DNA of 64,000 nt from Bacteroidota bacterium. GTDB lineage: Bacteria > Bacteroidota > Bacteroidia > Flavobacteriales_E > Vicingaceae. A program made the translations under genes and the position numbers. Within the stretch, counting starts at the first letter, position 1. Each line of letters begins with the position of its first letter. The notes under the pieces are model-generated. The model worked only from the letters and a program-made list of their open reading frames with translations, searched no databases and was not told the origin of the DNA. The stretch lies in the NCBI GenBank assembly GCA_016183805.1, contig JACPDX010000029.1:5290-69289 (forward strand). The letters run 5' to 3'. Positions 24,418-42,194 of this stretch are shown piece by piece.

Positions 24418-24816
24418 ATGCAGACAAGCAATAAGTTTCCTAAAATAGAAAAATTAAAAAGCACCAAAGATATTGATGGATTGTTTAATGGTGGCAAATC
24501 AATTCATGAATCTCCTATACGAGCTATTTACAAAAAAAAAGAAGAACCTTCTAAAACATGTTTAAGCGTAGGTGTAAGTGTTCCTAAAAAATTTCATAAA
24601 CATGCTGTTGATCGAAATCTTCTAAAACGTAGAATACGAGAAGCTTATCGTTTAAACAATTATCAACTTAAACAAGCACTATTAACATCAGAAATGCAAC
24701 TGAACCTTATGTTTGTTTACGGTTCGAAACAAATATTAAGCTATAACGAAATTGAAGAAAAAATAAAAGTAATTTTAAATCGTTTAAATTCAATGTTTGG
24801 GAAAAGTGTTGAGTAA
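24418..24816 (+). CDS. rnpA: Ribonuclease P protein component
   Basis: A 132-residue protein that helps the RNase P RNA mature tRNA 5' ends. The conserved basic RNR block is [18 protein letters not shown], preceded by [15 protein letters not shown] 24418 is preferred over GTG 24394 because of the promoter box at 24401. It overlaps yidD, as is common in bacteria. Usual neighbours rpmH and yidC are not next to it here. Confidence 0.92.
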
Positions 24817-25018
24817 GTTGTTTATCTTGATAATTCGTTTTTATCAGTTGAGTATTTCGCCTATGTTGGGGCAAAATTGCCGGTACGACCCTACTTGCTC
24901 CCAATACAGCATTGAAGCGTTAAAAAAATATGGAACATTTAAAGGTGGCTGGTTAAGTTTAAAAAGAATAGGTTCTTGTCATCCTTGGGGCGGACACGGA
25001 CATGATCCAGTTCCTTAA
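24806..25018 (+). CDS. yidD: Membrane protein insertion efficiency factor YidD
   Basis: About 70 residues. [23 protein letters not shown] and the following SIEALKKYG, plus the C-terminal [17 protein letters not shown], are the YidD signature, including conserved cysteines. YidD is membrane-bound by an amphipathic helix and assists YidC-dependent insertion. No ATG is available; GTG at 24806 (giving [14 protein letters not shown]) is preferred, with TTG at 24797 or 24809 as alternatives. It overlaps the rnpA end. Confidence 0.9.
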
Positions 25019-25029
25019 CTTAAAAAAAT

Positions 25030-25597
25030 TTAACACATAGGCACATAGTTTTGAAATTGACACAAAAATATTTAGATGAATTAACTTATGAAGTAGTTGG
25101 TGCAGCTATAGAAGTTCATAAAAATTTAGGTAAAGGTTTGTTGGAAAGTGTTTATCATGAATGTCTAAAACATGAGTTAGAATTAAGGAAAATAAAATTT
25201 ATTACTGAACACAAAGTACCATTGATATACAAGGGGAAAGTTTTAGAAGTAGATTTTAGGTGCGATTTGGTTGTAGAAAGTTGTTTGGTTGTGGAGTTAA
25301 AAGCAGTTCAAGAAATGCATGGTTCTTATGAGTCGCAAGTGCTTACATACATGAAACTTTTAAACGCTCCAAAAGGGATTTTAATAAATTTTAACTGTAA
25401 TAATATTTTTAAAGAAGGACAAAAAACATACGTGAATGAGCATTTTAGTAAATTGCCAAAGAATTAATAATAACAAATAACATAGTTTCTGTCGTTGACA
25501 GAACACATAGTAAAAAAGCTATGTTTTAGAGCAAAGCGACTAAAACTTGCTTTGGAGATTTTAAAGAAAAGATGAAAACTATGTATCTATGTGTTAA
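25030..25597. mobile_element. GxxExxY element bounded by terminal inverted repeats
   Basis: The left end 25030-25052 and the right end 25575-25597 are 23-bp inverted repeats matching at 21 positions (core AACACATAGnnACATAGTTTT). They enclose the GxxExxY gene and a 107-bp tail with an internal hairpin TTCTGTC-GTT-GACAGAA (25487-25503) and further CATAG motifs. The 568-bp unit sits between yidD and ctpA. No target duplication is obvious. A non-coding relative lies at 42045-42194. Confidence 0.65.
25051..25467 (+). CDS. GxxExxY protein (PD-(D/E)XK nuclease-like family)
   Basis: A 138-residue protein. GLLESVY at about 31-37 is the naming motif. VDFRCDLVVESCLVVELKA at about 67-85 fits the D...(E)xK core of PD-(D/E)XK nucleases. 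The last part, MKLLNAPKGILINFN, is typical. The start must be TTG (25051 or 25057), as no upstream ATG exists, and it overlaps the left inverted repeat. Such genes are scattered in Bacteroidota genomes, and function is not established. Here the gene is the only one between inverted repeats, so the nuclease may act on them (inference). Confidence 0.85.
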   Translation: MKLTQKYLDELTYEVVGAAIEVHKNLGKGLLESVYHECLKHELELRKIKFITEHKVPLIYKGKVLEVDFRCDLVVESCLVVELKAVQEMHGSYESQVLTYMKLLNAPKGILINFNCNNIFKEGQKTYVNEHFSKLPKN

Positions 25598-25609
25598 AAA
25601 AATTAGAAA

Positions 25610-27268
25610 ATGAAAAAAAGAATTACAAAAATTACCCTGATAATAGCATTGGCATTATCCTCGGTGTTTTCTGTCGGATATGTTGACAGTTATTTCGAAA
25701 TATCTAAAAATCTAGACATTTTTGCTACCCTTTTTCGTGAATTAAATATCTATTATGTTGATGATGCCGATCCCGGAAAGTTAATGAAAACAGGTATTGA
25801 TGCTATGTTAGAGTCGTTAGACCCATACACCAATTACATTCCTGAATCGAATATGGAAGATTACAAACTAATGACTACCGGGCAATACGGTGGTATAGGG
25901 GCGTTGATTCAAAAACAAGGCGAATACGTGGTAATTTCAGAACCTTATGAAGGTTATGGGGCTTTTAAAGCAGGATTACGTGCGGGTGATAAAATTTTGG
26001 AAGTAGATGGTAAATCGGTAATAAATAAAACTACCACCGATATTAGAGAGGTGCTGATGGGTCAACCAGGCTCCTCCATTATGTTAAAAATTGAACGACC
26101 TGGAACAACAGAACCTTTTGTAACAAAAGTAACCAGAGAAGAAGTTAAAATTAAAGATGTTCCATACTACGCAATGCTAAAAGATTCTGTGGGTTATATT
26201 AAATTAACCGGGTTTACCGAATCGGCAAGTAAAGAAGTCAAAACTGCGTTGGTTAGTTTAAAAGAACAAAATGCCAAGTCTATGATACTTGATTTGAGAG
26301 GAAACGGAGGAGGTTTATTAAATGAAGCTGTTAACATTGTTAACTTTTTTGTTCCGAAAGGCTCGGAAGTAGTTTTTACCAAAGGAAAAATTAAAGAATG
26401 GGACAAAACCTACAAAGCATTAAACGAGCCTATTGACACTAAAATACCATTAGTGGTTTTAATTGATGAAGGTTCTGCATCAGCCTCAGAAATTGTTTCA
26501 GGATCGTTACAAGACCATGATAGGGCTTTAATTGTTGGTAATCAATCGTACGGTAAAGGTTTGGTTCAATCTGTTCGACCATTAAGTTACAACTCAAAAC
26601 TTAAAGTTACAGTGGCTAAATACTACACTCCAAGTGGAAGGTGTATACAAAAATTAGATTATTCGCACCGTGAAGACGATGGTAAAGTAAATGCCATTGC
26701 CGATTCATTAATAAAAGAGTTTAAAACTTTGCATAATAAACGACCTGTTTTTGATGGCAAAGGCGTTGCTCCCGATGTTGAAGTTGAAAAGAAAATGTTG
26801 AGCAACATTTCTGCTTCATTGATCACTAAAAATTTATTTTTTGAATACGCTACCAACTACCGAATTAAAAACGAATCCATTAAACCAGTGGCAGAATTTA
26901 CTTTTTCTGATTCAGATTATGCTGATTTTGTGAAGTTTTTAGAGGGTAAAGATTATTCATACACCACAGACAGTGAAGATTTGTTGGCTAAATTGGAAGA
27001 AACCACCAAAGAAGAAAAATATTTTGAAGATGTAAAAACGGAATATGAACAACTAAAAGAAAAATTAAAAACACATAAAAACGATGATTTAAACAAGTTT
27101 AAAGAAGAAATAATTACCATTTTAGAAACTGAAATTGTTGGCAGATACTATTATCAAAATGGGTTAATTCAAAACTCGTTAAAGCGTGATCCAACACTTG
27201 AAGAAGCTACCAACACCATTAAAAACGAAACATTGTACAAATCGATTTTAGCAGGAACTAAAAAATAA
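25610..27268 (+). CDS. C-terminal processing peptidase (S41 family, CtpA-like)
   Basis: A 552-residue periplasmic protease. The N-terminal signal or anchor (about 5-25) is followed by the SLDPYTNYIPE segment, a PDZ domain (about 85-170, GGIGALIQKQG, GLRAGDKILEVDG), then the catalytic core. GSASASE with Ser291 and YGKG with Lys316 form the Ser-Lys dyad at the usual 25-residue spacing. A C-terminal helical extension of about 150 residues follows. It is first in a probable unit with the ligase-like gene (10 nt) and the amidohydrolase. Confidence 0.9.
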   Translation: MKKRITKITLIIALALSSVFSVGYVDSYFEISKNLDIFATLFRELNIYYVDDADPGKLMKTGIDAMLESLDPYTNYIPESNMEDYKLMTTGQYGGIGALIQKQGEYVVISEPYEGYGAFKAGLRAGDKILEVDGKSVINKTTTDIREVLMGQPGSSIMLKIERPGTTEPFVTKVTREEVKIKDVPYYAMLKDSVGYIKLTGFTESASKEVKTALVSLKEQNAKSMILDLRGNGGGLLNEAVNIVNFFVPKGSEVVFTKGKIKEWDKTYKALNEPIDTKIPLVVLIDEGSASASEIVSGSLQDHDRALIVGNQSYGKGLVQSVRPLSYNSKLKVTVAKYYTPSGRCIQKLDYSHREDDGKVNAIADSLIKEFKTLHNKRPVFDGKGVAPDVEVEKKMLSNISASLITKNLFFEYATNYRIKNESIKPVAEFTFSDSDYADFVKFLEGKDYSYTTDSEDLLAKLEETTKEEKYFEDVKTEYEQLKEKLKTHKNDDLNKFKEEIITILETEIVGRYYYQNGLIQNSLKRDPTLEEATNTIKNETLYKSILAGTKK

Positions 27269-42044: not shown

Positions 42045-42194
42045 AAACCACATAGACACATAGAAAAACCTTCTCCAAGCCAAATACTATGAAACAGGCT
42101 CACAATAGTTACTTCTCCGACTTGTCGGAGAATACTAATACTATGTTTGCCTTATTTTTATTCAACAGAAAGAAACTATGTACCTATGTGGTTT
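42045..42194. mobile_element. 150-bp non-coding inverted-repeat element (MITE-like), related to the GxxExxY element
   Basis: The ends 42045-42063 and 42176-42194 are inverted repeats (AAACCACATAGnnACATAG, differing at two positions). Their CACATAGnnACATAG core is shared with the ends of 25030-25597. Inside is the perfect hairpin TTCTCCGAC-TT-GTCGGAGAA (42113-42132), then CTATGTTT, again parallel to the right part of the GxxExxY element. It has no ORF. Confidence 0.65.

Follow-up and report, generated by a model that had tools for sequence, protein, structure and literature searches.

The GxxExxY nuclease gene at positions 25051-25467 of the window (the whole stretch of 64,000 nucleotides analyzed here, corresponding to positions 5290-69289 of contig 33 in a genome of 3.47 Mb and 109 contigs) lies between two inverted arrays of a short repeated core, and most of its relatives in many phyla lie between arrays of the same architecture, the type of repeat matching the lineage of the protein. 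The arrays form the boundaries of a unit that has been inserted between yidD and a protease gene, this genome also holds gene-free copies with those ends, and purifying selection acts on the gene. We consider it probable that this unit is a minimal mobile element, similar to REP/REPIN elements but with a Cas4-like PD-(D/E)XK nuclease as its enzyme in place of an HUH transposase.

The element in the window

The features on which the analysis is based are the following:

24797-25018, plus strand: yidD (PF01809), left neighbor, used as flank for the empty-site comparison
25029-25052, plus strand: left terminal inverted array, TTTAAC-ACATAG-GC-ACATAG-TTTT, with two 6-nt cores and an 8-nt period (TTTAACACATAGGCACATAGTTTT)
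25051-25467, plus strand: GxxExxY nuclease gene (TIGR04256 / PF13366 PDDEXK_3), TTG start, 138 aa
25480-25485, plus strand: internal ACATAG core, left of the tail hairpin
25487-25503, plus strand: tail hairpin, placed between ACATAG cores as is the central palindrome of gene-free elements
25504-25510, plus strand: internal CACATAG core, right of the tail hairpin
25575-25598, minus strand: right terminal inverted array, reverse complement TTTAAC-ACATAG-AT-ACATAG-TTTT (TTTAACACATAGATACATAGTTTT)
25610-27268, plus strand: S41-type ctpA-like carboxy-terminal processing protease gene, named from its translation, right neighbor and second flank for the empty-site comparison
42046-42193, plus strand: gene-free short element of the same family, AACC-ACATAG-AC-ACATAG ... 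CTATGT-AC-CTATGT-GGTT, with a fold z of -5.7 as single-stranded DNA
42113-42132, no strand assigned: central palindrome of the 42046-42193 element, TTCTCCGAC-TT-GTCGGAGAA

The two arms of the gene-bearing element are identical at 22 of 24 positions in inverted orientation, and an inverted-repeat search could extend them to 41 nt at 76% identity. An earlier examination of the letters alone (the sequence-only reading) had described near-matching inverted ends that enclose a single gene, with the left repeat overlapping its TTG start; both points were confirmed, the gene at 25051-25467 being the only one between the arms and the overlap amounting to 2 nt. The structured tail with a hairpin, also described there, corresponds to TTCTGTC-GTT-GACAGAA, located between two further copies of ACATAG. 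Allowing one mismatch, the ACATAG pattern appears 4 times in the window versus 0.18 expected (0/100 shuffles), and these matches are the ends of the gene-bearing element and those of the gene-free element at 42046-42193. A chance origin of the pattern is excluded by these figures, along with the count in the whole genome (49 versus 0, see below). The gene neighborhood is formed by rnpA, yidD and the protease gene, and no match to Rfam was found in the window.

The GxxExxY protein

The 138-aa product matched TIGR04256 with 135 bits (cut-off 35) and PF13366 with 128 bits (cut-off 22). It contains the motifs H23, E32, D72, E82-x-K84 and Q96-xxx-Y100, the sequence that gives the family its name being G29-L-L-E32-S-V-Y35. 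In an alignment of 24 diverse members (A1), G27, G29, E32, Y35, D72, K84 and Y100 are invariant, H23 and E82 nearly so, and there is no invariant cysteine; this alignment was too divergent for the pattern search, which was done with a narrower one. The structural model (pLDDT 96) is that of a single-domain PD-(D/E)XK nuclease. Together with D72, E82-x-K84 and the two family matches above cut-off, it bears out the PD-(D/E)XK-like core previously attributed to the protein. Motif conservation is consistent with an active nuclease, cleavage itself being inferred. The sole Foldseek match under 0.001 was Cas4 SSO0001 (E 4e-4; structure entry 4ic1, titled SSO0001, which we take to be a Cas4 protein), and VIA-align gave a Z of 9.2 to SSO0001 and of 7.6 and lower to CinB, type I restriction HsdR, Cas4 Pcal_0546, Hjc, MGME1 and AddAB. 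Profile matches were weak, both for Cas4 (E 0.0012) and for phrog_1706, 'CRISPR/Cas system associated' (E 5e-5), and PADLOC returned only weak Cas4 matches and no defense system.

Between diverged gene copies pN/pS is 0.14-0.31, which indicates that the protein has been kept functional by purifying selection. The gene copies are old, the three ACATAG-type proteins of this genome being 66-72% identical to each other.

Inverted arrays around other GxxExxY genes

Arrays were defined by the best ungapped inverted match between both flanks of a gene, with a score of at least 14, and flanks farther out were used as control. By this test, 55 of the 74 GxxExxY genes of this genome and relatives of its class were array-flanked, and none of the 74 outer-flank controls was; among the in-class genes added only after the initial inspection the proportion was 34/40. 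An independent set of 80 loci in named genomes covered Bacteroidota, Ignavibacteria, Chloroflexota, Planctomycetota, Verrucomicrobiota, several proteobacterial classes, Acidobacteriota and others, and here arrays were detected at 54 of 77 testable loci versus 0/62 outer-flank controls. Many of these records are metagenome bins, and single taxon names are therefore uncertain. The association would have been refuted if other GxxExxY genes lacked matching flanking repeats, as the sequence-only reading had pointed out, and both sets show that this is not the case; around a quarter of the genes have no array by the ungapped test. Gapped inverted-repeat scoring, done on 148 loci, produced long chance alignments in the controls and was far less discriminating than the ungapped procedure.

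Whatever their sequence, the arrays have a common style, with two to four cores (for example CRCNNAG or CRCAGAT) a few bases apart. In a Bacteroides finegoldii record, ACCACAGAG-GACGCAGAG-GACACGGAG and the inverse array are found directly around the gene. Strong direct similarity between flanks, besides the inverted arrays, was observed at L217, L228, L098 and about 24 further GxxExxY loci; at L217 two array ends are back to back, which suggests neighboring or composite elements.

The type of repeat follows the protein tree

Protein similarity and array similarity were correlated across genomes (Spearman 0.16, with 0/1000 permutations as high), while the value obtained with the reverse complement of the array as control was -0.004. 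Mapped onto a tree of 100 proteins, the array classes require 20 changes versus 49.4 when shuffled (0/200 shuffles as low). The clade of the window protein gathers ACATAG arrays from Flavobacterium and from records titled Pyrinomonadaceae, Ignavibacteriaceae and Cyclobacteriaceae, and ACATAG ends are present in its closest relatives, which range from Flavobacterium to records titled Pyrinomonadaceae and Ignavibacteriaceae. The proposal of a nuclease tied to its cognate repeats finds support in the flanking arrays at most relatives and in the way array class tracks the protein tree. Since the shuffles leave relatedness in, what they establish is that gene and repeat travel and change together, and binding is not shown by that alone.

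The link would equally have failed if the repeat were just as common without relation to the gene; repeat type does follow the protein tree, with the refinement that in a few genomes ACATAG pairs are present and no gene of that type was detected. One of them, G045, has such pairs and no GxxExxY gene at all, from which it follows that gene-free elements can outlast the gene or arrive without it, and in at least one more, G056, which also has ACATAG pairs, none of the GxxExxY genes examined is of ACATAG type. Inverted ACATAG pairs of about 126-137 bp were observed in other genera, in genomes G045 (C30:4209-4337), G051 (C202:4799-4931 and C220:7448-7573) and G036 (C79:11260-11396).

Copies with and without the gene in the same genome

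The exact sequence ACATAGnnACATAG is present 49 times in the genome, versus none for the reversed control, and these ends form around 27 elements of the structure AACC-ACATAG-nn-ACATAG ... CTATGT-nn-CTATGT-GGTT. Only three of them, in contigs C33 (the one in the window), C43 and C15, carry a GxxExxY gene and have a length of 452-558 bp; the paralogs in C43 and C15 have a TTG start as well, located immediately within the array. The other 24 or so are gene-free and measure 108-143 bp, a few of them being cut by contig ends or having one degenerate end, and this gene-free majority fits non-autonomous derivatives. The spacer between ACATAG cores was 2 nt in 37/37 matches of a pattern permitting 1-4 nt. 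All the 25 complete elements examined are intergenic, none within a long ORF. Among the 24 with both neighbors called, these were oriented ++ in 9 cases and -- in 8, and were divergent in 5 and convergent in 2. A role as terminator was also considered for the short elements and ruled out as their main role, with only 2/24 between convergent genes.

The middle of most gene-free elements is occupied by a palindromic sequence, its stem of 8-10 base pairs varying in sequence between elements (TTCTCCGA, TTATCCCA, TGTCCCGA, TTCTCCCGA and others), so that pairing is kept while the sequence changes. As single-stranded DNA, the short elements fold with z values of -4.4 to -7.7, in part by construction, given their inverted ends.

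The remaining two GxxExxY genes of this genome are flanked by inverted arrays of other sequence, GCCACAGATTCACAGATT in C42 and CTCGCAGATTCCGCAGATTAACGCAGAT in C85, where the gene is frameshifted; every GxxExxY gene in the genome is thus enclosed, and three array classes are represented. The frameshifted copy (L043, G000:C85:13482-13825) is found within intact CGCAGATT arrays, as a decaying autonomous element. A gene-free inverted pair of 51 bp, of the CACAGATT class that flanks the C42 gene, is located at G000:C86:11819-11869.

Insertion sites and evidence of mobility

Each of the 46 genomes searched in the family had matches to the flanks of the window element. The interval between yidD and the protease gene, 591 bp here, is mostly 6-168 bp in relatives in which both genes were placed adjacent, and the three congeners lack the element. 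No gene-free ACATAG element was seen at the yidD site of the relatives. When related loci were compared, homology began and ended at the arrays, with unrelated flanks beyond, in three pairs (L049/L113, L052/L291 and L104/L307), and its edges were within around 20 nt of the arrays, again with unrelated flanks, in L090/L097; L060/L286 have only the coding region in common and the ends are offset in L084/L092. Cognate linkage between repeat and gene is shown, and so is past mobility. Current activity is inferred and not shown, as near-identical copies in separate places were not observed; the closest pair within a genome is 90% identical over 483 bp. Genome G031 has 20 GxxExxY matches, belonging to several array classes; pairs in it with 83-90% DNA identity at different sites (L049/L113, L084/L092, L090/L097) are promising for recent movement.

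When 25 elements were analyzed for target-site duplications, no offset or length stood out, and the same set gave no target consensus beyond A+T-rich DNA, their flanks being unrelated and without one conserved site common to the copies. An 11-bp sequence, TTAAAAAAATT, is present near both ends of the window element, possibly by chance. No integrase and no DDE, serine or tyrosine recombinase gene is present in this element, which carries a single ORF. The gene-free element at 42046-42193 was also considered for an empty-site comparison and discarded: the orthologous region of the sister species G001 (L312:950-1500) shows an apparent degenerate array end, AACCACTCAACAACATAG, followed by an unrelated ORF of around 160 codons, so the site is not clean, and G002 and G003 are not collinear there.

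The GxxExxY gene was detected on only 8 of 72,556 plasmids and had no match in 50,697 phage records. A phage origin was ruled out on the latter basis (0/50,697, with one IMG/VR contig). This near-absence from phage and plasmids is unusual for a horizontally mobile element; a similar scarcity has been reported for RAYT genes (PMC8049555).

Possible mechanism and alternative explanations

As we envisage it, the nuclease would recognize the array that belongs to its lineage on either side of an element, be it its own or a gene-free one, and would cut or process DNA at these arrays; the unit they delimit, and others that have such ends but no gene, could then be copied or moved to new intergenic sites. 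The strands would probably be rejoined by host repair or recombination, a step left to the host because the element encodes no integrase. Array binding and cutting by the protein, its substrate (double- or single-stranded DNA), strand rejoining, strand transfer and mobilization in trans are all inferences. We know of no strand-transfer activity in a lone PD-(D/E)XK nuclease, and this counts against the mobile-element reading.

One may ask whether new insertions are needed at all. If the nuclease cut gene-free copies and host recombination copied the gene-bearing element into the break, in a homing process by repair, existing repeats would simply be colonized. PD-(D/E)XK homing enzymes exist, gene-bearing and gene-free copies have common ends, and the ACATAG-hairpin-ACATAG tail of the window element resembles a short element, as if the gene had entered one; we nevertheless regard this explanation as unlikely, given that it does not account for the arrival of the gene-free copies at their sites (25 elements, all of them intergenic), that the yidD site of relatives shows no gene-free ACATAG element and that the gene-bearing copies in C43 and C15 lack the tail hairpin. 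The abundance of gene-free copies, the existence of ACATAG pairs in a genome without GxxExxY (G045) and the location of S23/IVP genes also between inverted arrays (14/30 versus 0/30) would be compatible with arrays that belong to another mobile system, with its enzyme encoded elsewhere and GxxExxY as cargo or helper. This seems improbable to us, however, as the array class follows the GxxExxY tree across phyla, which is expected of a partner and not of cargo, and the S23 repeats differ in sequence from those of GxxExxY.

The arrays could also be binding sites through which the protein regulates its own and neighboring genes, after an ancient dispersal that has left a host regulatory network. 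The gene-free copies are indeed intergenic and mostly between co-directional genes, the copies are old (proteins 66-72% identical) and the gene is nearly confined to chromosomes, but operators need not be inverted at both ends or delimit the transferred unit, as the arrays do in several pairs, and the nuclease active site is kept in a gene under purifying selection, so that we give little credit to this possibility. It is very doubtful that the elements act as RNA, with transcripts that would fold via their inverted ends and be excised or processed like 23S rRNA intervening sequences. Inverted ends fold by construction, the genes on both sides of the elements occur in every orientation, DNA nucleases make up most of the nearest folds, with Cas4 first, and the window has no Rfam match; all this has to be set against the strong single-stranded folding of the short elements (z -4.4 to -7.7), the central palindrome kept in most of them with differing stem sequences, and the complementary ends found also in intervening sequences that carry S23 genes (PMC4990558).

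Returning to the minimal mobile element, array pairing around most relatives across many phyla points to a class that has not been recognized so far, and there is a fair chance that a repeat family with its cognate nuclease constitutes a distinct one. A broader proposal gives GxxExxY proteins the role of mobility enzymes for a class of minimal elements that would be widespread and so far undescribed. In each of them a lone Cas4-like PD-(D/E)XK nuclease, with neither an integrase nor an HUH domain, would recognize lineage-specific inverted arrays by reading the sequence of their cores, and would spread its own gene along with gene-free elements; we put this forward tentatively, as a serious possibility that we would not yet call probable. 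No description of repeats around GxxExxY genes was found in the open literature, subscription papers and preprints being outside its scope, so that a prior description is possible; the one paper examined that names GxxExxY does so only briefly, next to a reverse transcriptase. Genes of the GxxExxY family are common and often present in several copies, and no function is known for them; the matching terminal repeats provide a probable role for the family, and the tie between both explains why inverted repeats are scattered in the genomes examined. Should these units be moved by the nuclease alone, this would be a transposition route based on a fold not known to do so alone, and one with structural kinship to a CRISPR adaptation nuclease. 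The natural protein-repeat pairs make the recognition code directly testable, with cultured hosts in Bacteroides, Flavobacterium and Pedobacter.

Comparison with known systems

In REP/RAYT systems enzyme and repeat have co-evolved (PMC8266576). The GxxExxY elements share with REP/REPIN-RAYT (TnpA-REP, 'REPtrons') a nuclease-type gene flanked by matched repeats, enzyme-repeat co-evolution and scarcity on plasmids (PMC8266576, PMC8049555), and also the presence in intergenic DNA of many gene-free, hairpin-forming elements made of inverted pairs (around 24 here). They differ in the enzyme, which is PD-(D/E)XK and Cas4-like and not an HUH/Y1 transposase, in the ends, which are inverted tandem cores of 6-8 nt instead of single GTAG/CGTC-tagged palindromes, and in that several gene copies per genome are common. 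In the absence of an HUH enzyme and tagged palindromes, we consider them a functional analog of REP/RAYT and not a member; the resemblance to REP/TnpA-REP with a different protein fold, already perceived from the sequence, holds up with a model nearest to Cas4 and no HUH/Y1 transposase.

As in insertion sequences and MITEs, terminal inverted repeats delimit the unit and short gene-free elements share their ends with gene-bearing ones, but unlike a MITE and its parent insertion sequence there is no DDE transposase, no target duplication was detected, and the gene-free copies do not derive from gene-bearing ones by simple internal deletion. With Cas4/RecB-type PD-(D/E)XK exonucleases the protein shares fold and motifs (H, D, ExK, QxxxY); in contrast to Cas4, it has 138 aa versus around 200 and no conserved set of iron-sulfur cysteines in A1, and its gene lies within its own repeats without adjacent cas genes. 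Unlike homing endonuclease elements, there is no one conserved insertion site (25 elements, unrelated flanks).

Heptamer repeats of similar style (TAACTGA) exist in Beggiatoaceae, with no link made to the GxxExxY arrays. The 23S rRNA intervening sequences and free-standing S23/IVP genes (PF05635) also consist of a small single gene between inverted ends, although S23 is an unrelated protein, a four-helix bundle, the repeat sequences are other ones and classical intervening sequences are located in rRNA, whereas the window element is between yidD and the protease gene. At the S23/IVP loci of this genome and its relatives (L114-L143), inverted periodic arrays were detected at 14/30 versus 0/30 outer flanks, with units such as TTAGGTA, TATTGAG, GTTTCAG and CTAGAAC. 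A second protein family is therefore enclosed in the same architecture, which is not tied to one protein fold.
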